From positions 1 through 42,413 of the forward strand of contig NZ_JAKEDS010000007.1 in NCBI RefSeq assembly GCF_021462415.1: a stretch of DNA of 42,413 nucleotides, read 5' to 3'. This document shows, in pieces, positions 19,972 through 42,273 of the stretch. The DNA is from Rhodohalobacter sp. 614A (GTDB lineage: Bacteria; Bacteroidota; Rhodothermia; Balneolales; Balneolaceae). How positions within the stretch are numbered: position 1 is the first letter of the stretch; the number at the start of each line of letters is the position of its first letter. The translations under genes were made by a program, and so were the position numbers. The notes under the pieces are model-generated. The model was not told where the DNA came from. It saw only the letters and a program-made list of their open reading frames with translations, and did not search any database.

Positions 19972-21306
19972 ATGAAACCTTCATTTTCAATGACAGATGG
20001 CTATCGGGAATTGTTGTTTGGGCAGTGGATGCCGCACATTCTGATTGAAGAGTATGAAGCGGAAAGGCTTCCTATTATTGATGAATTGTGGGACATACCA
20101 AGTACCCCTGCGTTATATCTGGAGGCGGATAAGATGCTATTGACCCGCTGGCAGGCTCTGGCGGCTTCGCAATCCGGGTTTTCATCTTGGCTGCCTTCAT
20201 TCTATCAAATGAATAACTCATCATTTGAGCCGTTTCACCCGATTTGCAGATTTTACAGGTCCGTTCTATGGTGTGAGAGCAGAATGATCATGCAGGTTTT
20301 GCATCAGTGGCAGGAACAGATGGAATTAACTATTCTAAAGTATGAGTTGGTGTCGCTTCAAAACCAACTGATCGATTATCTGCTGGAGTGCAAGAAGAGA
20401 ATTTCGGGTTCCATATCTAATCCGGATAAGATTATTGCTACCCTTTTCCGCTATCTGAACTCACTTGTCAAAGATTCCATTCTTATTCTTCTTGTGGAAA
20501 TTAATGAACGATTTGGACACCTTCTGGAAGAAAGAGAATTAGGGGTTGATGAGATATTTGTCAGGTATCTCGAAACACAGGTACCCTCAAGAAAGGGCTG
20601 GTTTTCTACTGTAGACAGAATTAAATGGTATTTAAAAGGTATTCAAGAGGATTCAGAAGCAGGGAAAAATATCACAGAATTACTCACTCAATTGAAGAAA
20701 GAACAAAGTCAGCAAGATCCATTGCATCAGGATCGCCTGTTGAATTCTCGGCACATTCTTGAAAACGCCTGGTTCTGTTGGAAAATCTTTTCAGAGCAAA
20801 AAGGGAGTGAGACATTATTGTATATATCAGAACCTGAAAAGCAGAAGGATTTGCTTTTAAAATGGAAGCAGACGCTATTGGGCCATTCAAAACCGGATGA
20901 GAAGAGTGAAAAAGAGCATCGGGAAATCTACAACACTATTTTGAGCTGTCTGACTGAGATTTTATACACCCTTGAAACGGAACGTGAACCATTTTCGGAA
21001 GCTGCTGAGATGGCCCTTTTGATTAAAGACCTCTTTTCTGAAGAGGCGACTCATACCGGAACTTCTCAAATTCCCGGAAAAAACTTCCCGCCAAATACTG
21101 AAGGTCACTGGCTGCTGGATCAATACATACCCTTATATCAGGTACAGGAGAAATTAAGCGTAACGCCCCGGACAATGAGAACCTATATCAGTGATTATAA
21201 CTTGGAGGTCATTGAAATTACAGCCAAGAGTAAGTGGGTTCATGCTGAAGACTTTGAAATGTTTATGGAGCAGTTTAAGAAAAAGAGTACGCATCGAAGA
21301 AATTGA
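19972..21306 (+). CDS. Unknown helical protein with C-terminal helix-turn-helix, partner of Argonaute
   Basis: I do not recognise this 444-aa protein. Residues 1-360 are predicted mostly alpha-helical with no signal peptide or membrane segment; a stretch rich in heptad-like leucines (about 110-150, WQEQMELTILKYELVSLQNQ) could be coiled coil. The last 75 residues (LDQYIPLYQVQEKLSVTPRT, then MRTYISDYNLEV and KWVHAEDFEMFMEQF) match the layout of MerR/excisionase-type helix-turn-helix domains. No nuclease, Sir2 or TIR motif of known Argonaute partners is visible. It lies 188 bases ahead of the Argonaute gene on the same strand, behind a palindrome that recurs between the two genes. It could be a regulator of the locus, or an effector or target-recognition subunit. 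Distant similarity to RteC-type regulators was considered but not supported. Confidence 0.75.
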   Translation: MKPSFSMTDGYRELLFGQWMPHILIEEYEAERLPIIDELWDIPSTPALYLEADKMLLTRWQALAASQSGFSSWLPSFYQMNNSSFEPFHPICRFYRSVLWCESRMIMQVLHQWQEQMELTILKYELVSLQNQLIDYLLECKKRISGSISNPDKIIATLFRYLNSLVKDSILILLVEINERFGHLLEERELGVDEIFVRYLETQVPSRKGWFSTVDRIKWYLKGIQEDSEAGKNITELLTQLKKEQSQQDPLHQDRLLNSRHILENAWFCWKIFSEQKGSETLLYISEPEKQKDLLLKWKQTLLGHSKPDEKSEKEHREIYNTILSCLTEILYTLETEREPFSEAAEMALLIKDLFSEEATHTGTSQIPGKNFPPNTEGHWLLDQYIPLYQVQEKLSVTPRTMRTYISDYNLEVIEITAKSKWVHAEDFEMFMEQFKKKSTHRRN

Positions 21307-21494: not shown

Positions 21495-23564
21495 ATGAAA
21501 TCAACAGACGTTACACTGAATGTAATTCCCCTAGAACTGGAAGAAAAGTCGAAGCGCTTTAGTTTTTTTGAGAGCAAACCGGATAACGGTACTACTTTTC
21601 CACTCACTCCGCAAGAGATGCCTGTAAATGTGGCTGATATGTACACCGAGCCTATTTATACAGATTTTACTGAAAACCTATTGGCCGATATGACGGTAAC
21701 CGTTAAGTATGAGTTAAGTCCGAGGTTTGCCAAACACTACTTAAACTATCGTATCTATCAATGGTTTGAGGATAAAGCGTACCTGAGAAAACGGAATTTT
21801 ATACAGAACAACGAATTCTATTTTAAAAGCGGAACCGATGAGAAAAACGATATCGCAGAGTTTGAACGCTACCGTATACGGGGGACGTATGGAAGACTGA
21901 CCGACGGCTTTGAGCTAACCATCATCTATTCAGGTACTATGAATGTCTGGTTGAAACCAATCTATGAATACCGGGGGGAATCGACCGATTTTTCAACGGT
22001 TGTGTATCAAAAAGAACTCTACAGGTATGAAAATTTGATGGAACAGACGGGAATCAACAGAAAAGAGGTATTTCCGGTTATAAATCGGGATGTGGCTGCT
22101 GCACTAAATTTACCGCGCCCTCCATGGAAAAAGATCAACAAACTGAAACGATATACGGAGAATATTGACCGCTTTTATAAAAAGTTTATCTGCGACGCCG
22201 ATTTTGTCGAACAGTTTAAACCTTCCCCAAACGGATTCCTCAAAGTAAATAATGACAGCCTCAACCGAATTCCGGTAGAAGCGTCAAACCTGCTTTTTGG
22301 CGAAGGAATTACAGATAAAAATCCTTATGAAGGACTGAAGAGTGGAGGGCCTTTCCAGCCGCCGCCGGTTTCTCATATCGAACTGTTTTTAATCGTTTCG
22401 GAAAAGGATGCAGGTACAGCCGGCAATCAATTGTATAAAATGATGCGTGACGGAACAGGCCACTTCGGCGGACTGAATTCGTTTGCCCGCATCCCCGTGA
22501 ATCACAGCGAACATCATATGACATTCTCGAATACTGACAATCCGCTGCCGGAGATACGTCAAAAACTTCAGCAGATGCACTGGAGAGAAAATGTACATTA
22601 TGGTGCTCTCTATATCAGTCCTATTCACAGAGATGATCCTGATCCAAAAAAGAACCAAGTCTATTACCGTTTAAAGGAGGAATTGTTGAAGTATGATATT
22701 ACCTCCCAGGTGGTTGATGTGGATTCAGTGACCAATCCGTCATTCGCCTATTATCTGCCCAATATTTCACTGGCGTTAATTGCTAAATTGGGAGGGATAC
22801 CGTGGACACTTGAGCGCAAGCAGAAAAATGAACTGGTGATTGGAGTCGGTGCATACAGCCCGCGGCGAAAGCAAAAGAAGTATCTTGGCAGTGCATTTTG
22901 TTTTTCCAATAATGGAGATTTCCGGAGTTTTGATTCTTTTACAGCCGACGACCACCTGATGCTGGCCGGATCATTTCAAAAGGCGATTAAACAATTCAAA
23001 GAGGAGAATGAAGGGGTTGAACGGCTTGTGATTCATTTTTATAAGCGTATGAACCGCGAGGAAGCAAGGATGATTAAGCGGTCGCTGAAAGAGCTGGGTC
23101 TGGATATCCCAATTGTAATTATCACAATTCGAAAAACAGCATCGCAAGACCTTGTACTGAGCGATCGTTCTGTTACTCATAATCTTCCGCTTAGCGGAAC
23201 CTGGATGAAAAGCGGTCCCGGCCAATATTTGCTGTGCAATAATACACGTTTCGATTTGCCGGATGATTCCCTCAAATCGTTCCCATTTCCGATTAAGGTG
23301 TATATCGATATAGCGGGAAATCCCGATGGAGGCGACGGTCAGGAATCCTATCGAGAGTGGAGAAACCGGCACCTGAATGACAATGAATGGGTGGAAGAGC
23401 TATTGACACAGGTATACCAGTTCAGCCGCCTGAATTGGCAAACGATACGTGTAAAAGCATTGCCGGTTACCGTTCGGTATCCCGAAATGGTTGCGCGGAA
23501 GTTTCCTTTTTTTGAAGGTGAGGCCATACCAGAGTTTGGAAAGCGAAATTTTTGGTTTTTGTGA
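21495..23564 (+). CDS. Prokaryotic Argonaute, long form, predicted catalytically inactive
   Basis: A 689-aa Argonaute that presumably uses a short nucleic-acid guide to find complementary targets. The N-terminal 300 residues fit N, linker and reduced PAZ-like regions. KNPYEGLKSGGPF near 280 is the usual linker into the MID domain (about 295-440). The MID pocket pattern for a guide 5' phosphate is kept: Tyr391/Lys394 (YYRLKEELL), Gln405 and Lys431 (AKLGGIPW). The PIWI domain (about 445-689) appears to have lost its catalytic acids: IGVG (450-452) replaces the usual IGxD, and HFYK (514-517) replaces the HxDG-type site. ALPVTVRYPEMVA (655-667) is typical of inactive or short Argonautes. So it should bind, not cut, and rely on a partner. 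The start follows a 188-base gap from the HTH-protein gene. Confidence 0.9.
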   Translation: MKSTDVTLNVIPLELEEKSKRFSFFESKPDNGTTFPLTPQEMPVNVADMYTEPIYTDFTENLLADMTVTVKYELSPRFAKHYLNYRIYQWFEDKAYLRKRNFIQNNEFYFKSGTDEKNDIAEFERYRIRGTYGRLTDGFELTIIYSGTMNVWLKPIYEYRGESTDFSTVVYQKELYRYENLMEQTGINRKEVFPVINRDVAAALNLPRPPWKKINKLKRYTENIDRFYKKFICDADFVEQFKPSPNGFLKVNNDSLNRIPVEASNLLFGEGITDKNPYEGLKSGGPFQPPPVSHIELFLIVSEKDAGTAGNQLYKMMRDGTGHFGGLNSFARIPVNHSEHHMTFSNTDNPLPEIRQKLQQMHWRENVHYGALYISPIHRDDPDPKKNQVYYRLKEELLKYDITSQVVDVDSVTNPSFAYYLPNISLALIAKLGGIPWTLERKQKNELVIGVGAYSPRRKQKKYLGSAFCFSNNGDFRSFDSFTADDHLMLAGSFQKAIKQFKEENEGVERLVIHFYKRMNREEARMIKRSLKELGLDIPIVIITIRKTASQDLVLSDRSVTHNLPLSGTWMKSGPGQYLLCNNTRFDLPDDSLKSFPFPIKVYIDIAGNPDGGDGQESYREWRNRHLNDNEWVEELLTQVYQFSRLNWQTIRVKALPVTVRYPEMVARKFPFFEGEAIPEFGKRNFWFL

Positions 23565-26188: not shown

Positions 26189-29100
26189 ATGAAAAAAACA
26201 GTATTGAGGAAACTGGGTAAGATGTCTCGCCTAACGATTGCAGCCCTTTTTCTTGTGTGTCTATGCTCAAATATGATACATGCCTCGGAAAAGGTAGAAG
26301 CACAAACACTTCACGACGTTCAAATTCAAGTCGCTATCAATAAAGCTAATCTGGCAGAGTTGTTTGAATTGGTCGAGAATCAAACCAGGTTTCGGTTTGT
26401 TTACCCGGCTTCTTTGAAAAGGGATGTCCAAACTTCTTTTGATTTTAACTACAACTCCATTTCAGTTGCTGATCTATTGAAGGCTGTAGGGGCACAAACC
26501 GGACTGTGGTTTAGACAGATAAACTCAACTATTGCCGTAAATACGGAGAATGTTTGGTTAAAAGAAGAGGGGGATGAGCTCATATCGCCGATGGAAGAAC
26601 AATCTCAAGAAGTTTATGGTCATGTTACTGACGGACAAAGTGGAGAAGCGCTTCCCGGAGTAAATATACTTGTTTTGGATTCAGAAGAAAGGGCCGGAAG
26701 AATAATAGGTACACAAACTGATTCAGACGGTAATTATTCTATCAGCGTACCAGAGGGGTTGAATACTTTGGGGTTTTCATATATAGGATATGAGCGTTTG
26801 GAGGTTGAAATCGATGGCAGAACAGAGGTTGATGTTCAGCTGACCCCGGATGTTCAGATGCTAGAGGATTTGGTAGTGGTGGGGTATGGATTTGAAAGAA
26901 GGAAGGATTTAACTGGTTCGATTACTACTGTTGAGGGGGAAGAATTAAATGCAAGAAATGGCACCCAATTATCTCAAACACTACAAGGATTTATGCCAGG
27001 TGTCATGGTAACAAGAAATAGTAGTTTGCCAGGCTCTTCTGCTGATATAAGGATCAGAGGTATTACGACTATAGGTGATAGTCAGCCTTTAATAATTGTT
27101 GATGGTGTTCCATATGAAAACATTGATGACATTAATGAGAATGATATTGACCAGATAACCGTCTTGAAAGATGCCGCAGCAGCATCAATCTATGGTGCAC
27201 GAGCAGCTGCAGGTGTGATTCTAATATCAACAAAAAATGCAGAGGTAGGTGAAATTAACTTTGAGTTTGATTCTAATTATGGGTTTGAAAAACCAACAAG
27301 ATGGCCAGGAACAGTTGGGCCCATTAGGTATATGGAGATGTTCAATGAAATGCAGTGGAATGATGCTGGGAATCCTGAAGATGGTGAGTTTACAACATTC
27401 TCCAGAGATGAAATTGCCAACTGGATCGAAAGAAATAAAACCAATCCAAATCAGTATCCATTAACTGATTGGAATAGCTTATTGATTAATGACTATGCAC
27501 CTAAACATAATCATCAATTTACCCTGAGCCATGGGAGTGAGTTTATTAAGACAAGGGCATCAATTCAGTATGAAAAAACTGATGCTCTATACGATTACCG
27601 GAGTTATGAAAGGGTAATGACAAGATTAAATAATGATATTACTTTTACGGATTATCTATCGACAAATGTTGATATTTCGTTTAACAGAAGTATAACAGAA
27701 AGGCCTTCTGCCAATCCTCTTTATTCATCATATAAGTATGCACCTATATATTCGGCAATGTACGATGATGGAAGAATTTCGGGTGGTAAAGATGGATCAA
27801 ATATGTATGCACTTCTACACAATGGTGGATTTGAGGATACGTGGATCAATAAATTTAATGGAAGAGTTTCTTTAGACTTTAAGCCCCTTGATAAACTAAT
27901 TATTACAGGAGTACTGGCCCCAACTTTCCATTCCTTCAAAACTAAGGATTTTAATAAAAAGATAAGTTATACCGATGCAAATGATCCTACTCAAATAGCT
28001 GGGTATATATCTGGTTATAATGAGACATCACTATATGAGGATCGAATAGATCGACAAACTCTGACAAAACAGTTACTTGTAAACTATCAAGTTTCTTTTT
28101 TAAATAAACATAATCTGAATTTTTTAGCAGGCTATGAAGATTATTCATATTTCCAAGAATCTTTAAATGGACAGAGCATTGGCTTTCAGCTAAATGATTT
28201 TCCTTATCTCAATCTTGGAAACAGAGATAATATGATAAATAATGGAAATGCTATCGAGTCTGCATATCGTTCATTATTTGGTCGGTTAAAGTATGATTAT
28301 TTCAGTACATATTATCTTCAAGTTAATTTTAGAGCCGATGGTTCATCTAGATTTCATCCAAATCACAGGTGGGGCTATTTTCCTTCTATATCTGGGGGGT
28401 GGGTTGTTTCGAATGAAGCGTTTATGTCGAACATTAAGCCACTATCATACTTAAAACTGAGAGGTTCATGGGGAAGTTTAGGAAATGAGAGAATTGGGTA
28501 CTATCCATATCAGGCATCAATAAACTTTGCTACAGATGCACTTTTTTGGCAAGGTAATAACATTATGTCAAGATTGGCGGCCGCGCAAGTTAATTATGCT
28601 GTAAGAGACATTTCATGGGAAACTACAAAGACTTGGGATGTAGGAATTGACGCCAACTTTTTTGACAATAAGTTAGAAATATCCTTCGATTATTACGAAA
28701 AACAGACGAAAGACATGCTATTGAAGCTGGAAATTCCTGACTTTATTGGTTTTGAGGATCCAGATCAGAATGCAGGCACAATGCACACAAAGGGTTGGGA
28801 TATAGAATTAGGCTGGCGAGATCAAATCAGAGATTTCGAATATTCAGTTTCGTTTAATGTTTCCGATTTTAAATCAACTATGGGTGACCTTAGTGGTACT
28901 GTTTTTCTTGGTGACCAAATAATCAGAGAAGATAGTGAGTACAATGAATGGTATGGTTATTTGTCAGATGGGATCTTTCAAACACAGGAAGAGGTTGAAA
29001 ATTCACCTGTTCTTGTTTCTAATACTCGTCCTGGTGATTTGAAGTATGTTGACATTTCTGGGCCAGAAGGAGAGCCGGATGGGGAGATAACCCCCGAGCA

Positions 29101-29611
29101 CGATAAGGTACTCTTAGGTGGATCACTGCCACGATTAATATTTGGTAGTAATATTAATCTTAATTACAAAAACTTTGGAATTTCTTTAGCCATACAAGGT
29201 GTAGCTAAACAAAACAGTAGAATAATTCCAGACATGGTTATGCCATTCCAGGCAAACTGGTTATCTCCACCAGATATAATTGATGGTAATTATTGGAGCT
29301 ACAATAATACGGAAGAGGAGAACCTCAACGCAAAGTACCCCAGATTGTCCAATATGGTTGCGGATAACAATTATGTAATGTCTGATCATTGGCTAATTGA
29401 TGGTTCGTATATCAGATTAAAAAACATTTCAATCAGCTACACAATACCTCAAAAAATAACTGAAAGATTAGCATTGGATCTGATAACAATACATTCCTCT
29501 ATTTCAGACCTTTTCAGCTTTGATAATTATCCTGATGGTTGGGATCCTGAAATGGCGGGTAATTCATATATCTCACAAACATTCAATTTTGGTGTCAATG
29601 TTAAATTTTAA
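26189..29611 (+). CDS. SusC/RagA-family TonB-dependent receptor with STN signalling domain
   Basis: An outer-membrane TonB-dependent transporter of 1140 aa with a signalling extension. After the signal peptide (about 1-32) comes an STN domain (about 45-120, LAELFELVENQTRFRFVYP), a carboxypeptidase-regulatory-like domain (about 142-225, VYGHVTDGQSGEALPGVNIL), a TonB-box-like EDLVVVGYG near 235, a plug with VLKDAAAASIYGARAAAGV and a barrel ending in phenylalanine. The STN domain is what contacts FecR, so this receptor reports ligand arrival to the upstream sigma/anti-sigma pair. It is lower in GC than the first SusC of the window and not closely similar to it outside family motifs. The SusD partner starts 15 bases later. 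Confidence 0.94.
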   Translation: MKKTVLRKLGKMSRLTIAALFLVCLCSNMIHASEKVEAQTLHDVQIQVAINKANLAELFELVENQTRFRFVYPASLKRDVQTSFDFNYNSISVADLLKAVGAQTGLWFRQINSTIAVNTENVWLKEEGDELISPMEEQSQEVYGHVTDGQSGEALPGVNILVLDSEERAGRIIGTQTDSDGNYSISVPEGLNTLGFSYIGYERLEVEIDGRTEVDVQLTPDVQMLEDLVVVGYGFERRKDLTGSITTVEGEELNARNGTQLSQTLQGFMPGVMVTRNSSLPGSSADIRIRGITTIGDSQPLIIVDGVPYENIDDINENDIDQITVLKDAAAASIYGARAAAGVILISTKNAEVGEINFEFDSNYGFEKPTRWPGTVGPIRYMEMFNEMQWNDAGNPEDGEFTTFSRDEIANWIERNKTNPNQYPLTDWNSLLINDYAPKHNHQFTLSHGSEFIKTRASIQYEKTDALYDYRSYERVMTRLNNDITFTDYLSTNVDISFNRSITERPSANPLYSSYKYAPIYSAMYDDGRISGGKDGSNMYALLHNGGFEDTWINKFNGRVSLDFKPLDKLIITGVLAPTFHSFKTKDFNKKISYTDANDPTQIAGYISGYNETSLYEDRIDRQTLTKQLLVNYQVSFLNKHNLNFLAGYEDYSYFQESLNGQSIGFQLNDFPYLNLGNRDNMINNGNAIESAYRSLFGRLKYDYFSTYYLQVNFRADGSSRFHPNHRWGYFPSISGGWVVSNEAFMSNIKPLSYLKLRGSWGSLGNERIGYYPYQASINFATDALFWQGNNIMSRLAAAQVNYAVRDISWETTKTWDVGIDANFFDNKLEISFDYYEKQTKDMLLKLEIPDFIGFEDPDQNAGTMHTKGWDIELGWRDQIRDFEYSVSFNVSDFKSTMGDLSGTVFLGDQIIREDSEYNEWYGYLSDGIFQTQEEVENSPVLVSNTRPGDLKYVDISGPEGEPDGEITPEHDKVLLGGSLPRLIFGSNINLNYKNFGISLAIQGVAKQNSRIIPDMVMPFQANWLSPPDIIDGNYWSYNNTEEENLNAKYPRLSNMVADNNYVMSDHWLIDGSYIRLKNISISYTIPQKITERLALDLITIHSSISDLFSFDNYPDGWDPEMAGNSYISQTFNFGVNVKF

Positions 29612-29626
29612 ACAGAGTAAAAAAAA

Positions 29627-31324
29627 ATGAAAACTAACATATTTATTTTACTTTTTGGATTTATTCTAACGGTTTCATGTACCGATTTAAATTTAGATCC
29701 GCTATCCGAAGCTTCCAGTGGAAACTGGTATTCAAATCCAGATCAGGTTGAATTAGCTTTAAATGATTTTTATAGAGAGTATTTATGGTTACTCGAGAGG
29801 AATTTTCAAACGGATAGATGGACTGACGATTGGGCCCAAAGACAAGTAGCCTATTCATTTGCTGTAGGGTCAATCACTAGTGAGTGGGGCGATGCTGAAG
29901 AGGTTTGGAGTAATACCTATAAAGGAATAAGCAGAGCTAATAGAATAATAGAAAATTTAGTTGAACTTGAAGGAAAATTTCCAAGTGAACAAATTAACGA
30001 ATTAAAAGCTGAGGCTAGTTTCTTTCGAGCCAATTTCTATGCTAGGTTAATAACTCTCTACGGCGATGTTCCATTTTATACAGATGAAATATCTATCAAT
30101 GAAGCTTTTGAAATGGGAAGAACAGATCGGGAAGTAGTGTTGGAACAAGTCTATACAGATTTTGACTATGCAATAAATCACTTACCGTTAAACAATACTG
30201 GATCTGGAGGTGAATTTCGTGCCGATAAAGGAGCTGCTTTAGCAATGAAAGCAAGAACTGCATTATATATGTCCGATTGGTCCATGGTTGTCGAATCTAC
30301 AGAAGCGGTCATGAACTTAGATAAATATTCACTATATCCAGATTACGGAGAATATTTTAGGTCAAAAGAAATTGAATCTGAAACTATTTTTGCTATTCCA
30401 AGGGACTATTCTTTAGGAAATTACTCTAGTTCAAGAGGGTTCATACTTAGAACAGCCGGAGGAACTGCAGATGCTCAGCCTTCATGGGGGCTATTAGCGG
30501 CCTATTTGAATACGGATGGACTACCTATTGATGAATCTCCATTATTTGATCCGAAATATCCTTTTGAAAATCGGGACCCAAGACTTACAGAGACCATAGT
30601 TGAACATGGTACTGAGCATGTGGGGTTTATATATCAACCGCATCCAGATACATTGGAAGTATTAAATGTTGAAACAGGGGAGATGGTTACAAATAGAGAT
30701 AGTAAGGCTAATACTCCTTGGGCAGCTTTTGATTGCTTAATGTTAAAGAAATGGGTGACCAATTCTTGGAAAGCCAGTGATGGAAGATATAATGACCAGC
30801 CTTTAATAATTATTAGATATGCAGATTTATTATTGATGTATGCTGAAGCCAAAATTGAACTGAATGAAATTGATCAATCTGTTTTAGAAGCTATTAATAA
30901 AGTTAGAGCACGAGCTTATAAAACGGATATTTCAGCTATTCATGAATATCCTGCCATTACTACCACAAATCAAACAGAACTTCAAAAGATTGTAAGACTT
31001 GAAAGAAGGATGGAATTGGCGTGGGAAGGCCGTAGATACTGGGACCTTTTGAGATGGAGAATGTTTGAAGAAGCTTATAAACCGTACTATGGTCATCACC
31101 CCTTGGCCCTTTTAAAAGAAAGAATAACAGATCCAGGATTATGGTTTTGGCCTTGGACTCCTGAAATCGATGAAAATGGTATTGCTGATTTTGGCCCCAT
31201 GCATGACGCTGGTTTAATAGCTCTTTATATAGAGCGAAATTTTGATGAAAAACAGTATTTGTGGCCAATTCCCAACTCTGAGGTTCTTGCAAATGAAAAT
31301 ATTAAACAGAATCCGGGTTACTAA
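29627..31324 (+). CDS. SusD/RagB-family nutrient-binding lipoprotein
   Basis: The surface lipoprotein partner of the STN-containing SusC, 565 aa. The lipoprotein signal ends at Cys18 (ILTVSC). Family features include EASFFRANFYARLITLYGDV near residue 128, VYTDFDYAINHLPL near 188, IIRYADLLLMYAEAKIELNE near 395, RLERRMELAWEGRRYWDLLR near 455 and the typical C-terminus WPIPNSEVLANENIKQNPGY. It probably binds the imported substrate of the second locus. No sugar specificity can be read from the sequence. Confidence 0.93.
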   Translation: MKTNIFILLFGFILTVSCTDLNLDPLSEASSGNWYSNPDQVELALNDFYREYLWLLERNFQTDRWTDDWAQRQVAYSFAVGSITSEWGDAEEVWSNTYKGISRANRIIENLVELEGKFPSEQINELKAEASFFRANFYARLITLYGDVPFYTDEISINEAFEMGRTDREVVLEQVYTDFDYAINHLPLNNTGSGGEFRADKGAALAMKARTALYMSDWSMVVESTEAVMNLDKYSLYPDYGEYFRSKEIESETIFAIPRDYSLGNYSSSRGFILRTAGGTADAQPSWGLLAAYLNTDGLPIDESPLFDPKYPFENRDPRLTETIVEHGTEHVGFIYQPHPDTLEVLNVETGEMVTNRDSKANTPWAAFDCLMLKKWVTNSWKASDGRYNDQPLIIIRYADLLLMYAEAKIELNEIDQSVLEAINKVRARAYKTDISAIHEYPAITTTNQTELQKIVRLERRMELAWEGRRYWDLLRWRMFEEAYKPYYGHHPLALLKERITDPGLWFWPWTPEIDENGIADFGPMHDAGLIALYIERNFDEKQYLWPIPNSEVLANENIKQNPGY

Positions 31325-34385: not shown

Positions 34386-34427
34386 ACGAATTCGAACATG
34401 TCCAATATCAATGAAAACAAAAGAATT

Positions 34428-35705
34428 ATGAAGAAAGTTATATTATTTCTTGCTGGTACTATATTACTCATTCAATCTGCCTGTAGTGTTAATAATAAGA
34501 CTGATAAAAGACCCGTCACTCCTGCGGATTCTTCTAGTATTCCAAAGACACTTCCAGCTTGGGAAGAAGGATATTTGGACATTCATGCTATCAACACAGG
34601 ACGTGGGGAAAGCTCCTTGCTGATTTTTCCCGATGGAACGACTATGTTGATCGATGCCGCAGGTTCCCTGATATCCCCTACACATGAAATACCCCCTCCA
34701 CCTCAAAAGCCGAATATTAATGTGTCTCCGGGACAGGCAATAACAAATTATGCGAGACACTTTATTGAGCCGGCCAGTAAAAAGTTAAACTATCTAATGA
34801 TTAGCCATTTCGATCCAGATCATATGGGTAGCTACAGTGATGATTTACCGTTGGATCCTACGCGAAATTTTCGAATGGGAGGGATCACCGAAGTAGGAGC
34901 GAAAATCACTTTTGATAAAATTTTGGATAGGGGATATCCAGATTACAACTATCCAACCGATATGACTTCAACCGCCAGAATAACGAATTACATTCATTTT
35001 ATCGAATGGGCTGAATCAGCGTATGGTGCAACAGCAGAGCAATTCATTGCTGGAAGAAATGATCAGATCACTCTGATGGAGAATCCATCAAAATATGAAA
35101 ATTTTGAGATTCGCAATGTTGTTTCAAATGGAATGGTGTGGACTGGAACCGGATCGGAATCTGTAAACACGCTTCCTTCAGGCTCTAACGTAGACGGGGT
35201 AATTGGAGCAGAAAATATCTTCAGCTTGGGTTTTTTGTTATCATACGGTGATTTTAATTATTTCACTGCAGGAGATCTTCAATATAACGGGAGATCTACT
35301 TACCCTTGGAGAGATATTGAAGCACCAGTGGCAGAGGTAGTTCCAGCTGTAGATGTGATGAAAGCAAATCATCATGGTACTGCTCACTGTAATAGTGATG
35401 CTCTTCTTAACAGCTTAACTCCGAAGGTGGTAGTAGCTCATACCTGGAGAGACGTACATCCTAATCCTGAAACCATATCCAGGATCTATGCTGCAAACAA
35501 TAGTTGTCAAATATTTTCTACCAATATGACGGATGCCAATAAGTCACGGTTGGGAGATAATATTCATAGGCTGAAAGGTTTACAGGGACATGTCGTGGTA
35601 CGAGTGAATCCCGGCGGGGACGAATACTATGTGTATGTATTAAATGATTCGGACGAAAAAAATTATAGAGTTGAAAAAGTTTATGGCCCTTACTCAAGCA
35701 AATAA
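34428..35705 (+). CDS. Metallo-beta-lactamase-fold lipoprotein, ComEC-hydrolase-like
   Basis: A 425-aa lipoprotein (signal MKKVILFLAG, lipobox ending at Cys19 in IQSAC) with a metallo-beta-lactamase fold of the ComEC type. DIHAINTGRGESSLLIFPDG and TTMLIDAAGS form the first beta sheet. The metal site is SHFDPDHMGS (His127, Asp129, Asp131, His132). A second part FTAGDLQYNGRSTY near 290 is followed by MKANHHGTAHCNS near 318. In ComEC this domain degrades one DNA strand; stand-alone lipoprotein relatives have no settled role. The frame opens at 34398, but the ATG at 34428 gives a clean lipoprotein signal. It sits inside a nutrient locus, where a phosphodiester substrate is possible, given the GDPD-like gene nearby. 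Confidence 0.8.
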   Translation: MKKVILFLAGTILLIQSACSVNNKTDKRPVTPADSSSIPKTLPAWEEGYLDIHAINTGRGESSLLIFPDGTTMLIDAAGSLISPTHEIPPPPQKPNINVSPGQAITNYARHFIEPASKKLNYLMISHFDPDHMGSYSDDLPLDPTRNFRMGGITEVGAKITFDKILDRGYPDYNYPTDMTSTARITNYIHFIEWAESAYGATAEQFIAGRNDQITLMENPSKYENFEIRNVVSNGMVWTGTGSESVNTLPSGSNVDGVIGAENIFSLGFLLSYGDFNYFTAGDLQYNGRSTYPWRDIEAPVAEVVPAVDVMKANHHGTAHCNSDALLNSLTPKVVVAHTWRDVHPNPETISRIYAANNSCQIFSTNMTDANKSRLGDNIHRLKGLQGHVVVRVNPGGDEYYVYVLNDSDEKNYRVEKVYGPYSSK

Positions 35706-35753: not shown

Positions 35754-36470
35754 ATGAAAGTTTACAATAAGGTATGGATTATCGTCTCTGCATTTTTAGT
35801 TATGATCTCGGATTTACAGATTCAGGTTATGAATGCGGGAATAGGAGGAAATACAAGTAGAGATCTTTTGCAGAGGATAGATTCAGATGTTATATCTCAT
35901 AATCCTGATGTCGTATTAATGATGATTGGAACCAATGACATGGTTAACTCCAACAAACTGATATCAGTAAATGAATATGAAAATAATCTGAATCATATAG
36001 TCAATAGATTGGAAAAAAGAAATATTGAGGTGGTATTAATAAGCCCAATCCCTGTAGACACCACTTACCTTTTTAGAAGACATGGCCGGGATGCATATGT
36101 ACAACCTCCTAACACAAGAATAGAAACTGCAGGGAATGTGATGAGGCAAATAGCAAAAGAGAAAGGGATATTCTTTTTTGATATGAACCGTGAGTTTACC
36201 GATAGAGGAATACCTACACATAACGAAGATGAATTTATCAGAAATGAAAAAAATAGTAAAGCCACCGATGGCGTTCATCCCACACCTAAGGGATATGAAC
36301 TAATGGCTAACTTGATCTACAAGTTTATGTTGAGCAACAATTTGGTGGAGCCTGGTATGAAAGTAATATGCTTCGGGGATTCTATTACCAAAGGAGTGCA
36401 TGTAAAAGGCAGTGGAACAGCTACAGGAGAAACCTATCCGGGAGTTTTGTCAAGGCTATTGAACCAATGA
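35754..36470 (+). CDS. Circularly permuted SGNH/GDSL hydrolase
   Basis: A 238-aa esterase-type protein with all SGNH blocks, but in an unusual order. It begins with the block II strand VMNAGIGGNTSRDLLQRI (Gly oxyanion residue about 29-32), then block III MMIGTND (Asn61), then block V DGVHPTPKGYELMA (Asp172, His175). Block I comes last: KVICFGDSITKGV with nucleophile Ser210, then ETYPGVLSRLLNQ and the stop. In normal members block I is N-terminal and is followed exactly by the segment that opens this protein. No GDS block lies in the 45 bases upstream and no second block II lies downstream. The first 20 residues (WIIVSAFLVMIS) could be a signal or anchor. The start is the ATG at 35754; a GTG one codon earlier is possible. 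It probably removes acetyl or other acyl groups. Confidence 0.8.
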   Translation: MKVYNKVWIIVSAFLVMISDLQIQVMNAGIGGNTSRDLLQRIDSDVISHNPDVVLMMIGTNDMVNSNKLISVNEYENNLNHIVNRLEKRNIEVVLISPIPVDTTYLFRRHGRDAYVQPPNTRIETAGNVMRQIAKEKGIFFFDMNREFTDRGIPTHNEDEFIRNEKNSKATDGVHPTPKGYELMANLIYKFMLSNNLVEPGMKVICFGDSITKGVHVKGSGTATGETYPGVLSRLLNQ

Positions 36471-36546: not shown

Positions 36547-37488
36547 ATGAGTGATACGATAACAGTAAGCAGATTTCAGCCATTAAAAAGAGTTTTGGTC
36601 CATGATGTGTTCTCCAAGGGGCATCACGGATGGATGGAAATTATGCCTAACTTTTGTGAAGCACCTGATTTTGAAGAAAGTCCAAGTATTTTATCTAAAC
36701 ACCAGTGGCCAGCTGCGATGCTGAGCTCAGCAACATTCCGCTATCCAGGTACCCATGGAGCACTGTCAGGAACATATAGTTTAAAAGTATCAACACGGCC
36801 GGTTTGTGGACCATACGAAGAACCGCCGGTTCCTGGATCGATGGGACACGCCATAAAACGGCTATCGTTCCATCAGCGTAAGAGAAAATACTTGCAATTT
36901 GAGATGTGGTTTGCTTTTACAGCAGAACAAGACAAGGTAGATGGAGAAGGTGAGCTCCCTGGGCTTCATGAAAATTCAATTCGTTCATTTGGTGCTGGTT
37001 TTGATCTACAAGAACGCGGAAACAGATATTTTGTAGGGGCAAGATACCTCAACTCTGTAAATGGTGAACTTCAAAAGAAGTGGCAATTTATCAGCCCTGC
37101 TGATGTAACGGATAAGGAATGGGCGTATGGCACTGAAGGGGACTGGTGTAAGAAGGGTGTTGATCCATTTTGGTTTGGGCGTCGGTATCCTGACGGAAGG
37201 CATGACGGATTTAAAGATGTCCCTAAGGGCCAGCAGGATTTATGCTACAACGAAACCGATTGTAAGATCAACTGGCAATACTTCCGATTGTTGTTTGATA
37301 CCGAAAACCGCAGATATGTAGAGATGCAATGCCAAGACCAGACATTTGATTTGAGTGATTTTCCTATAGAGGTGAGTGCTCCTTATGATAGAATTGATGG
37401 GTTAATGAATCCTCTGGTGTGGGTTGAAAATGATGCAAAAAGAAGAGTATTCCTGTTTGTGGACTCTGTAGTAATATCACAGGAATAA
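36547..37488 (+). CDS. Conserved-looking protein of unknown function
   Basis: I do not recognise this 313-aa protein with confidence. It has no signal peptide or membrane helix and is rich in aromatic residues and predicted beta strands (FEMWFAFTAEQDKV, RNRYFVGARYLNS-type segments, WQYFRLLFDTENRRYVEMQ, VWVENDAKRRVFLFVDSVVI), which resembles a concanavalin-type jelly roll such as found in carbohydrate-binding modules. It may belong to a DUF family of sugar-utilisation loci (DUF6772 came to mind, unverified). It is separated from the SGNH gene by 76 bases and from the next small gene by 53, so the genes are probably co-transcribed. Confidence 0.7.
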   Translation: MSDTITVSRFQPLKRVLVHDVFSKGHHGWMEIMPNFCEAPDFEESPSILSKHQWPAAMLSSATFRYPGTHGALSGTYSLKVSTRPVCGPYEEPPVPGSMGHAIKRLSFHQRKRKYLQFEMWFAFTAEQDKVDGEGELPGLHENSIRSFGAGFDLQERGNRYFVGARYLNSVNGELQKKWQFISPADVTDKEWAYGTEGDWCKKGVDPFWFGRRYPDGRHDGFKDVPKGQQDLCYNETDCKINWQYFRLLFDTENRRYVEMQCQDQTFDLSDFPIEVSAPYDRIDGLMNPLVWVENDAKRRVFLFVDSVVISQE

Positions 37489-37541: not shown

Positions 37542-37877
37542 ATGAAGGTATTTAATGCGGCACACCTGGAAGTAAAAAAAGATTTTAAAGAAGATTTCCA
37601 AACCAATCCATTTGAAGCGGGCTGGGCAAGTGAATGTATATTCTTTGTTATGGTTGAAGATCTATCAGGAGAAGCTCCAGAACTTACGGCAGAAGTTGAA
37701 ATTTCGCATGACGGTATGAGTTGGGCGAAGGAAGGATCAGCCTTGACTTCGGTTAATAAGAAAGGACTTCATTTTGTAAAGGTCCACCACTTTGGGAATT
37801 GGCTAAGGTTAAACTGCCATATCGAAGGTGAAAAACCCAGCTTTAGGCTTAATATTCAGATTGCTCTGAAAGAGTGA
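37542..37877 (+). CDS. Small beta-rich protein of unknown function
   Basis: This 111-aa product is not recognised. It is predicted to be a single beta sandwich (ELTAEVEISHDGMSWAKEGS, GLHFVKVHHFGNWLRLNCHI, SFRLNIQIALKE), without signal peptide or membrane helix. It follows the 313-aa unknown at 53 bases and may form a functional pair with it. The codon pattern and clear strand alternation make it look like a real gene. Confidence 0.65.
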   Translation: MKVFNAAHLEVKKDFKEDFQTNPFEAGWASECIFFVMVEDLSGEAPELTAEVEISHDGMSWAKEGSALTSVNKKGLHFVKVHHFGNWLRLNCHIEGEKPSFRLNIQIALKE

Positions 37878-39866: not shown

Positions 39867-41360
39867 ATGATATTAAATCAAGGAAATTTAAATTCGATAT
39901 CAAAACGAATTGCAGTTCCAGCATATAATAGGAATAATCTAAAACCAGGTATAGTACATATTGGGGTGGGAGGTTTTCATCGAGCTCACCAGGCCTGTTA
40001 TACGGATGAGTTGATGAGTAAACAAGATGCTGATGAATGGGGGATTTGTGGAATAGGTATTCGTGAAGCAGACCGATCTATGTGGCAGGCTTTATCGGAA
40101 CAGGATTTTCTTTACACGGTTGTGGAGAAATCTCCTGATGGCGGTAGTAACCCAAGGGTGGTAGGATCAATTATTGACTATATTTTAGCTCCCGATGCCC
40201 CAGAAAAAGCAATTATTAAATTGGCATCCTCCACAACAAAGATTGTGAGCCTCACAATTACCGAGGGAGGCTATAATCTGAGTGACAGTTCAGGTGAATT
40301 CGATTTCAGCAACTCGGATGTGCAGTGGGATTTACATCACCCCGAAGAACCACGAACGGTATTTGGTTATTTGGCGGCAGCGCTGAACAAAAGAAAAGCG
40401 GCAGGGTTTCCGGGTTTTACTATTCTCTCCTGTGATAATATTCAAACTAACGGCGATATAGCACGGAAAATGTTTCTCACCTTTATTAAAGAACAGGATA
40501 GAGATCTGGTCGGTTGGGTTGAAAAAAATGTCCGTTTTCCGAATAGTATGGTTGATCGAATTACTCCGGTTACCACTCCTGATGACATTGAGGAGTTAAA
40601 GACAAAATTTAATATTGAGGATAACTGGCCTGTTGTGTGCGAATCGTTTACACAATGGATCATTGAAGATAATTTTGTGAATGGAAGACCTGAATGGGAG
40701 AAGGCCGGCGCACAATTTGTAAGTAATGTTGAACCTTATGAAATGATGAAGCTCAGGCTTTTAAATGCTGGGCACTCCCTGTTAGGGATTATCGGAACTT
40801 TGCTGGGATACACTTCAATTGATGAAGCCGTAAAAGATCCAATACTGGAAAAGATGTTGTGTCAATTTTTTAATGAAGAAGTAAGCCCCACGTTGGGACA
40901 AGTAGAAGGGATTGACCTGGACGCCTATAAGGAGAAGTTAATAGAACGGTTTGGTAATCCGAATATTAAAGATAAGCTCTCGCGGATTTGTTCTGAATCT
41001 TCAGCTAAACTTCCCAAGTTCTTACTGCCAACTATTAAATCACAAATTGAAACAAACGGACAAATAAAAATCAGTGCAGCTATTGTGGCCAGCTGGTATC
41101 GGTACCTTGAGCTTGATGGGAAAAATGATGACGGTCAGAGGTATGAAATTATAGATGAAAAGTATGATCTGCTGCAAAAAGCGATCAGCAATACAGATAA
41201 AGATAATCCTGTAGCCTTTCTTAAAATTGAAAGTTTGTTTGGAGAGATCGGTAATTCTGACCGGTTTTTGAATCATTATCTTGCAGCGGTGGATGAATTA
41301 AGAAAGAGAGGTCCCCGTCCTTTAATTGCAGATGTTATTCAAAATACAAACCGTCGCTAA
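39867..41360 (+). CDS. Mannitol 2-dehydrogenase-family polyol dehydrogenase
   Basis: A 497-aa member of the polyol-specific long-chain dehydrogenase family, which oxidises mannitol or a similar polyol or hexonate with NAD. The N-terminal nucleotide-binding part has VHIGVGGFHRAHQACYTDEL near residue 30. The catalytic residues known from Pseudomonas fluorescens mannitol 2-dehydrogenase occur at the same numbers: Asn191 (SCDNIQTNG), Lys295, Asn300 and His303 (MMKLRLLNAGHS). Family relatives include fructuronate reductase and arabinitol dehydrogenase, so the exact polyol is not certain. A PfkB kinase starts two bases after this stop, so a mannitol to fructose to fructose 6-phosphate route is likely. 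It follows a broken alcohol dehydrogenase. Confidence 0.88.
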   Translation: MILNQGNLNSISKRIAVPAYNRNNLKPGIVHIGVGGFHRAHQACYTDELMSKQDADEWGICGIGIREADRSMWQALSEQDFLYTVVEKSPDGGSNPRVVGSIIDYILAPDAPEKAIIKLASSTTKIVSLTITEGGYNLSDSSGEFDFSNSDVQWDLHHPEEPRTVFGYLAAALNKRKAAGFPGFTILSCDNIQTNGDIARKMFLTFIKEQDRDLVGWVEKNVRFPNSMVDRITPVTTPDDIEELKTKFNIEDNWPVVCESFTQWIIEDNFVNGRPEWEKAGAQFVSNVEPYEMMKLRLLNAGHSLLGIIGTLLGYTSIDEAVKDPILEKMLCQFFNEEVSPTLGQVEGIDLDAYKEKLIERFGNPNIKDKLSRICSESSAKLPKFLLPTIKSQIETNGQIKISAAIVASWYRYLELDGKNDDGQRYEIIDEKYDLLQKAISNTDKDNPVAFLKIESLFGEIGNSDRFLNHYLAAVDELRKRGPRPLIADVIQNTNRR

Positions 41361-41361
41361 C

Positions 41362-42273
41362 ATGAAACAGCCAAAAGTAGTTTGTTTTGGGGAGGTGCTT
41401 TGGGACGATCTGCCATCGGGAAGAAAACCTGGCGGGGCGCCCATGAATGTAGCTTATCATTTAAATAAATTAGGTGTAGAAGGGGTAGTCATAAGTAGAG
41501 TTGGTGAAGATTCTGACGGAGAAGATCTATTAGAAGAATTGAAAAACCTGGGCTTAAAAGCTGATTACTGCCAGACAGACTCTGAACATTCCACTTCAAC
41601 CGTAAATATAAAAACCAATGCCGAAAACGAACCTTTTTATGAAATAGTAAGTCCTGTTGCGTGGGATTATATAGAATTTGAGCATAGCTACGTGAAATTA
41701 CTGGAAGCTTCGGATGCTTTTGTATATGGTTCGCTTTCGGCGAGGAATTACCTTACACGAAACACTTTGCATCAATTACTAAGAAAAGCTCCTTACAAGA
41801 TTTTTGATATCAATTTAAGGGAACCTTTTTTTAAAAAAGATGAAGTTACATACCTACTGAAAGAAGCCAGCCTTGTAAAAATGAACCTAAACGAATTGCA
41901 TATTTTACATCACTGGCATGATGATATTGGCAATGAAAGTGAAGCAGGAATGGTGAGTAGTTTAATGGAGAAGTTTAACATTGACGAAATATTGTTGACA
42001 AAGGGAGGACACGGAGCTTGTTATTATTCCAAAGCCTATCGATTTCATAGCACTGCCTATAAAATTGAAGTTAAAGATACTGTGGGAAGCGGAGACTCTT
42101 TTTTAGCCGCTTTTCTCTCAAAAAAGCTAACCGGATGTAAAATAAAGGATGCATTAGATTTTGCTTCGGCTGTAGGAGGTTTTGTAGCTACTAAGCCTGG
42201 TGCCTGCCCAGACTATGTGCAGGAAAATATTAATGATTTTATCACGAAAGGAATGGCTAGCAATTCTCCATAA
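41362..42273 (+). CDS. PfkB-family carbohydrate kinase, fructokinase-like
   Basis: A 303-aa ribokinase-type sugar kinase. The N-terminal block VVCFGEVLWDDLPSGRKPGG and APMNVAYHLNKLGV fits the fructokinase branch, and the signature near the end, VKDTVGSGDSFLAAFL (about residue 250), holds the catalytic Asp in the anion-hole motif. The gene begins with the ATG at 41362, one base after the dehydrogenase stop; the open frame back to 41326 overlaps the previous gene and is not needed. With the upstream polyol dehydrogenase it would phosphorylate the ketose produced, most simply fructose to fructose 6-phosphate. No missing residue is seen. Confidence 0.88.
   Translation: MKQPKVVCFGEVLWDDLPSGRKPGGAPMNVAYHLNKLGVEGVVISRVGEDSDGEDLLEELKNLGLKADYCQTDSEHSTSTVNIKTNAENEPFYEIVSPVAWDYIEFEHSYVKLLEASDAFVYGSLSARNYLTRNTLHQLLRKAPYKIFDINLREPFFKKDEVTYLLKEASLVKMNLNELHILHHWHDDIGNESEAGMVSSLMEKFNIDEILLTKGGHGACYYSKAYRFHSTAYKIEVKDTVGSGDSFLAAFLSKKLTGCKIKDALDFASAVGGFVATKPGACPDYVQENINDFITKGMASNSP

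Follow-up and report, generated by a model that had tools for sequence, protein, structure and literature searches.

A putative exported SGNH-superfamily esterase with a C-terminal nucleophile block, and its circularly permuted relatives in Bacteroidota and phages

Introduction

Ordinary SGNH (GDSL) hydrolases, such as the acetylxylan esterases Axe2 and AlAXEase and the lipase/acylhydrolase 1yzf, are recognized by four canonical motifs, the nucleophilic Ser of GDS (block I), Gly (block II), Asn (block III), and D-x-x-H (block V), which follow each other in the order I-II-III-V. Natural circular permutation of this core has already been described, as far as the available portions of the sources go, in AlgX, AlgJ, and WssI (PMC9487903, PMC4148444, PMC10302187), and in the DHHW family and PatB1 (PMC9487903, PMC5697884). 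AlgX, AlgJ, WssI, and PatB1 have the order H-S-G-N, with Tyr or Asp in place of Asn in some of them, possess altered motifs, and serve polysaccharide O-acetylation (PMC9487903, PMC4148444, PMC10302187, PMC5697884). For instance, AlgJ and AlgX carry GTSYS in block I and D-x-H in block V, while the DHHW/PatB1 proteins are transferases with the TDHHW and DxRY motifs. SGNH domains of the ordinary type are also found in phage receptor-binding proteins, such as G7C gp63.1 and the Klebsiella prophage fibres, and have been shown there to be esterases (PMC13123978, available portion).

Here we analyze a gene at positions 35754-36470 (+ strand) of the window, that is, the whole 42,413-nucleotide stretch of contig NZ_JAKEDS010000007.1 from Rhodohalobacter sp. 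614A. Its motifs, Pfam matches, and conservation identify it as a circularly permuted SGNH hydrolase gene, and its product very probably is an exported SGNH-superfamily serine esterase whose block I was shifted from the N- to the C-terminus by a natural circular permutation.

Order of the catalytic blocks

The open reading frame starts with ATG at 35754, one codon downstream of an in-frame GTG, and encodes 238 amino acids, the stop codon ending at 36470. All four canonical motifs are present, but they run II-III-V-I (G-N-H-S). Block II (NAGIGGN, residues 27-33, positions 35832-35852) is followed by block III (GTND, residues 59-62, 35928-35939), block V (DGVH, residues 172-175, 36267-36278), and, at the very end, block I, which combines the predicted strand 203-208 and the GDSIT motif at 208-212 with the nucleophile Ser210 (36360-36389). 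As judged from the sequence and the model, the linker 195-202 (36336-36359) connects the block-I strand with the helix that closes the normal fold, that is, it bridges the old C- and N-termini. The predicted helix 228-237 (36435-36464), which normally comes after block I, here ends the protein: YPGVLSRLL occupies residues 228-236, and only NQ and the stop codon follow. Thus both the II-III-V-I order and the C-terminal location of GDSIT and YPGVLSRLL claimed in the preliminary description of this DNA are confirmed at the named positions. Its further statement that the protein begins exactly at VMNAGIGGN has to be corrected, as about 24 signal-peptide-like residues precede this point.

These residues form an N-terminal hydrophobic segment (residues 1-23, 35754-35822), modelled as a helix at 2-19 with a pLDDT of about 60, and the mature chain may start near VMNAGIGGN. 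Inspected by eye, the homologue from Flavobacterium algicola seemingly has a classical signal that stops right ahead of block II, and several homologues have lipoprotein-like or twin-arginine-like N-termini at the equivalent place.

Comparison with Pfam profiles gives the same picture. Residues 22-183 of the native protein match positions 32-178 of PF13472 without block I (E 8.5e-27, 95.2 bits), and when block I is rotated to the front, the match becomes continuous over 1-178 of the 178 positions, with a score of 107.2 bits. Similarly, PF00657 is matched without block I by the native sequence and over 1-208 of 208 positions by the rotated one. Since the rotated protein matches the whole profile, nothing is missing, and one piece has been moved. 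The order of blocks in this protein exceeds chance.

The protein is neither an AlgX nor a DHHW member. The cut lies between blocks I and II here and before block V in AlgX, AlgJ, and WssI, giving G-N-H-S instead of H-S-G-N/Y/D; the G-D-S and D-G-x-H motifs, invariant in all 54 permuted proteins described below, replace the GTSYS and D-x-H of AlgJ/AlgX; and block V has D-G-x-H in place of TDHHW. No AlgX-type model was found among the Pfam matches of the window protein at E<=1. Because it has all the canonical motifs in the order II-III-V-I, we assign the protein to a permuted branch of the SGNH superfamily rather than to its ordinary members.

Homologues with the same order

Scanning 84,980 species genomes with patterns derived from the 238-residue protein yielded 14 relatives, four of which, from Sinomicrobium oceani, F. 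algicola, a Pedobacter MAG, and a Sphingobacteriales MAG, are nearly full-length and have the same order (32-45% identity). Together with the window protein, they form the five rows of profile A1, which was run on whole genomes. Among 394 genomes of the phylum, it finds at least three permuted proteins, including that of the window, all with at least 262.8 bits, and the best other SGNH protein scores 81.0 bits. At cut-offs of 1e-26 or 1e-30, permuted proteins were detected in at least 5 of 348, 18 of 344, 6 of 299, and 20 of 150 genomes of four families; these counts are lower bounds, as only the best 7 to 18 candidates per genome were scored with A1.

With three copies taken out, the proteins that match the permuted profile end to end number 54, all distinct and permuted, and include that of the window. 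They were picked by this match, so their shared order is by construction, but the conservation of their residues is not. Ser210, Asn61, Asp172, His175, Gly29, Asn33, Gly208, Asp209, and Thr212 are invariant in 54 of 54, Gly32 is kept in 53, and further invariant positions include Asn27, Arg41, Pro51, Arg109, Asn167, Cys206, Tyr228, and Pro229; the window protein retains all four catalytic residues, as had been noticed in the single sequence. A GDS motif ahead of block II is absent from all 54, and in each the chain ends 23-40 residues past the G of GDS. For comparison, among 65 other SGNH ORFs with a partial match, block I stands before the core in 59, after the core in none, and is unrecognized in six. 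The median pairwise identity among the 54 proteins is 42%, and the lowest is 28%. Invariant residues and a tail of this length in every member at such divergence demonstrate prolonged selection on the two parts jointly, hence a long-maintained function rather than decay.

The search for homologues sharing the block order, proposed in the preliminary description, thus returned 53 other distinct proteins from dozens of Bacteroidota genomes. Its concern that homologues might all have block I first is not borne out, since 54 proteins have it last, and the circular-permutation reading withstands the suspicion of an assembly error, since independent assemblies share the order. The permuted form is an established enzyme family. 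One homologue (L104, 154-2163) is a 670-residue fusion with a possible N-terminal right-handed beta-helix (PF13229, below the cut-off) and could possibly be a two-activity polysaccharide enzyme.

Predicted fold

The AlphaFold2 model, built from a five-row alignment (pLDDT 87.2, pTM 0.85), has the three-layer SGNH architecture on a five-stranded sheet. The strands, which DSSP calls only where paired, succeed one another as they should in a permuted SGNH chain, and the block-I residues 203-208 form one of the five. Superposition on ordinary SGNH esterases, another check suggested earlier, agrees with this prediction; the structural aligners used are sequential, so the comparison covers the model without block I. 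The VIA-align match to 1yzf (Z 17.0, 155 residues, 2.0 A) pairs residues 22-201 of the model with residues 39-193 of the chain, leaving the first 38 residues of 1yzf without a sequential partner. The Z-scores are 16.8 for the acetylxylan esterase 7ddy and 14.8-15.0 for Axe2. Overall, structural alignments with the ordinary hydrolases have 25-31% identity at Z 14.8-17.0, and sequence matches to them extend over blocks II-V; the permuted proteins differ in having block I last and the termini between helix 1 and strand 2. The best 50 VIA-align matches stay within residues 15-202 of the model and leave block I without a sequential partner, which is what a permutation would give. AlgX-like chains are absent from the 50 matches listed by Foldseek or VIA-align, which carries no evidential weight.

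Gene context

In the window, the permuted gene follows, on the same strand, a SusC-like (TonB plug) and SusD pair of the glycan-uptake type (26189-31324), a sodium:solute symporter (PF00474, 32628-34385), and a metallo-beta-lactamase-like protein (PF00753 below the cut-off, 34398-35705), the latter ending 48 bases upstream. Directly downstream, also on the + strand, is a gene for a DUF6772 protein (36547-37488, by Pfam), and three genes 3' of the SGNH gene there is an FAD-dependent oxidoreductase (PF12831, 38091-39386), followed by a mannitol-dehydrogenase-family protein and a PfkB sugar kinase likely to act in sugar catabolism (39867-42273). A DUF6385-like protein (below the cut-off, 37542-37877) is encoded after the DUF6772 gene. 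Farther upstream, the window encodes a 689-residue prokaryotic Argonaute (21495-23564, + strand; PADLOC pAgo 5.7e-204, Piwi domain 5.3e-16), preceded by a 444-residue protein (19972-21306) that has no Pfam or PADLOC match at E<=0.001 and may be its partner.

Neighbourhoods of five genes on each side were prepared for 44 loci and counted for 42 (L141 and L142 were left out, as was L147, a copy of L034). An FAD oxidoreductase of one family occurs in 31 of the 42 (L034, L035, L037, and 28 loci of L127-L166), being the direct same-strand neighbour in 24 and lying within 60 bases in 19 of these. It is absent from the remaining 11. One of these is the window, whose own PF12831 protein is only distantly related (1.9e-34 against the oxidoreductase profile). 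Two representatives of the family match PF12831, and one representative has a Golvesin_C domain. With the oxidoreductase profile, a member is found within 1.5 kb of 37 out of 50 permuted loci and none of the 57 other SGNH loci; the former count is partly by construction, as neighbours of permuted genes went into building the profile, and the latter is not, though the 57 control loci contain several near relatives, and contig ends truncate some of these loci.

SusC-type genes are present in 25 and SusD genes in 23 of the 42 neighbourhoods, in clusters to which the window's own pair belongs, and a cluster of apparently FecR-like regulators accompanies 16; this label and the label sulfatase-like were assigned by eye. 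Other neighbours of the permuted genes encode GH29, GH92, an SASA esterase, a GMC oxidoreductase, and an MFS transporter. Two neighbour clusters, represented by proteins from L035 and L127, have no Pfam match. The SusC/SusD proteins, the FAD oxidoreductase, and the sugar enzymes together suggest deacylation of an imported glycan or of a sugar derived from it, but since the sugar enzymes (GH29, GH92, SASA esterase) vary from one neighbourhood to another, no single substrate follows.

Permuted domains in phage contigs

On viral contigs, profiles A1 and A2 detect 9 and 21 loci, respectively. Three distinct loci match through to block I, and all lie in tail or lysis regions. In L195 (4251-5654), the permuted SGNH domain is the C-terminal part of a 467-residue protein encoded 3' of baseplate genes (GPW_gp25, Baseplate_J) and 5' of a GH108 endolysin. 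In L183 (2329-3627, the same as L213, 7338-8636), it ends a 432-residue protein, on a contig that also carries the major head protein and the tape-measure protein. Finally, L182 (2950-3645, the same as L212, 3013-3708) is a stand-alone gene for 231 residues between an fn3-containing protein and an amidase endolysin; its model has the same strand order (pLDDT 82.5, pTM 0.85).

Among named phages, the L182 domain matches two records and the L183 domain three over 81% (its residues 4-174, which stop before block I). The window protein itself matches 32 named phage records and 36 plasmid records, none over 80% of its length. The available portion of the description of phage tail SGNH esterases makes no mention of permutation (PMC13123978), and the domains on the three contigs found here are permuted. 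By analogy with the ordinary tail esterases, the phage forms may deacylate host surface glycans.

Origin of the permutation

Trees were built from 46 of the 54 permuted rows (seven near-copies and L100 were dropped) and 33, 30, 30, or 29 of the 65 other rows, which were selected on motif, length, and score and then pruned of long branches. They group the permuted proteins save for 2-3 label changes (mean of 23-25 after shuffling), and no supported split separates the permuted proteins in these trees. In the first tree, L017, a very long branch, falls among the permuted proteins with starred support; after removal of long rows a single permuted clade is still not recovered and is not rejected (p-AU 0.502). 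The sequence data are thus compatible with a single origin, and the support is not clean.

Tandem duplication followed by loss of the outer halves is a plausible route to the permuted order. A junction search for SGNH-SGNH tandem proteins in 198 genomes produced matches in 20 at E<=0.01, and none of the loci read from it encodes a tandem protein. Two of the 20 are the permuted genes of the window and of genome G237. Thirteen further loci were considered: by pattern, eight (L169, L170, L173, L175, L176, L178, L179, L181) carry the two motifs with block I leading, two (L171, L172) have block I first as seen by eye, and in three (L174, L177, L180), by pattern only, block V is present and no second domain start follows.

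The three further matches in the Rhodohalobacter genome itself are weak and partial (31-37% identity, none past residue 148 of the query), and therefore offer no close linear paralog fit as parent. Outside the window's own gene, among the matches listed in related genomes, only one, in G036, passes residue 192 of the query; this candidate (19-216, across two stops) turned out to be an ordinary SGNH gene with block I first. Among the matches in 98 related genomes, its own included, the window protein alone is permuted, and its nearest kin by tree path is that of Sinomicrobium, which suggests that the gene was gained by transfer.

Alternative explanations

An assembly or sequencing error, or a one-off rearrangement, could have reordered an ordinary SGNH gene, as the lack of another permuted homologue among the matches in 97 related genomes might indicate; however, the 53 proteins from independent assemblies that keep both order and catalytic residues refute this, and its probability is negligible. 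It is very improbable that the gene is a truncated two-domain SGNH protein, made of a dead first domain devoid of block I and a stub of the second. Such a product would show the observed order just after tandem duplication and loss of the outer halves, but Ser, Asn, Asp, and His would hardly stay invariant at 42% median identity, nor would a tail of 23-40 residues persist in 54 of 54 proteins; moreover, the tail is predicted to be a strand of the fold, and no tandem SGNH-SGNH ORF was seen among the loci read.

More serious, though still unlikely, is a domain-swapped dimer, in which each active site would be completed by block I from the partner chain. In favour of it are the short linker of about 8 residues and the discreteness of block I as a C-terminal module; moreover, terminal strand-helix units are known to swap. 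The monomer, however, is modelled confidently as one fold (pTM 0.85). An acyltransferase activity like that of the permuted AlgX/AlgJ, WssI, and PatB1 has a small chance. According to the available portions of the papers, these proteins serve polysaccharide O-acetylation (PMC9487903, PMC4148444, PMC10302187), but they combine the order H-S-G-N with altered motifs (GTSYS, DxH, Tyr/Asp for Asn, DHHW), whereas the family considered here keeps canonical GDS, G, ND, and DxxH. Among solved structures, this family comes closest to acetylxylan esterases and GDSL hydrolases, and its gene context is that of glycan uptake, not export.

Functional prediction and significance

We favour a permuted hydrolase, most likely an exported carbohydrate O-acylesterase. 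The moved piece would comprise strand 1 and helix 1 together with the nucleophile turn GDSIT, with the old termini joined by the linker of about eight residues and the new ones opened between helix 1 and strand 2, so that the C-terminal strand would slot back into the sheet. The predicted triad is Ser210, His175, and Asp172, and the oxyanion hole would be formed by Gly32, Asn61, and the Ser210 amide. An acyl ester would be hydrolysed by the ordinary acyl-enzyme route, so that a glycan taken up by the cell, or a sugar obtained from it, may lose its O-acetyl or other acyl groups.

A wider reading, to which we give about even chances, is that a single-origin, hitherto undescribed family of permuted SGNH esterases (G-N-H-S, canonical motifs) has spread through Bacteroidota glycan-uptake loci, shares one pathway with FAD oxidoreductases belonging to a single family, and has passed between bacteria and phages, the latter using a tail form to strip acyl groups from host surface glycans. 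The frequent oxidoreductase neighbour points to an uncharacterized sugar pathway, while the permuted topology in phages hints at a group of tail esterases built in this way.

Permutation of the SGNH fold is already known; the G-N-H-S permutation with intact hydrolase motifs is new as far as searched, and this order was not found for SGNH proteins in the available portions of the open-licence literature. The family is easily overlooked, since Pfam labels its members simply as GDSL lipase. For a very common enzyme fold, it provides another natural permutation, distinct from the one described before and with the active-site motifs unaltered, and is thus directly comparable with the ordinary members. 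Such a comparison bears on how a nucleophile placed at the chain end may affect folding, export, and substrate range.
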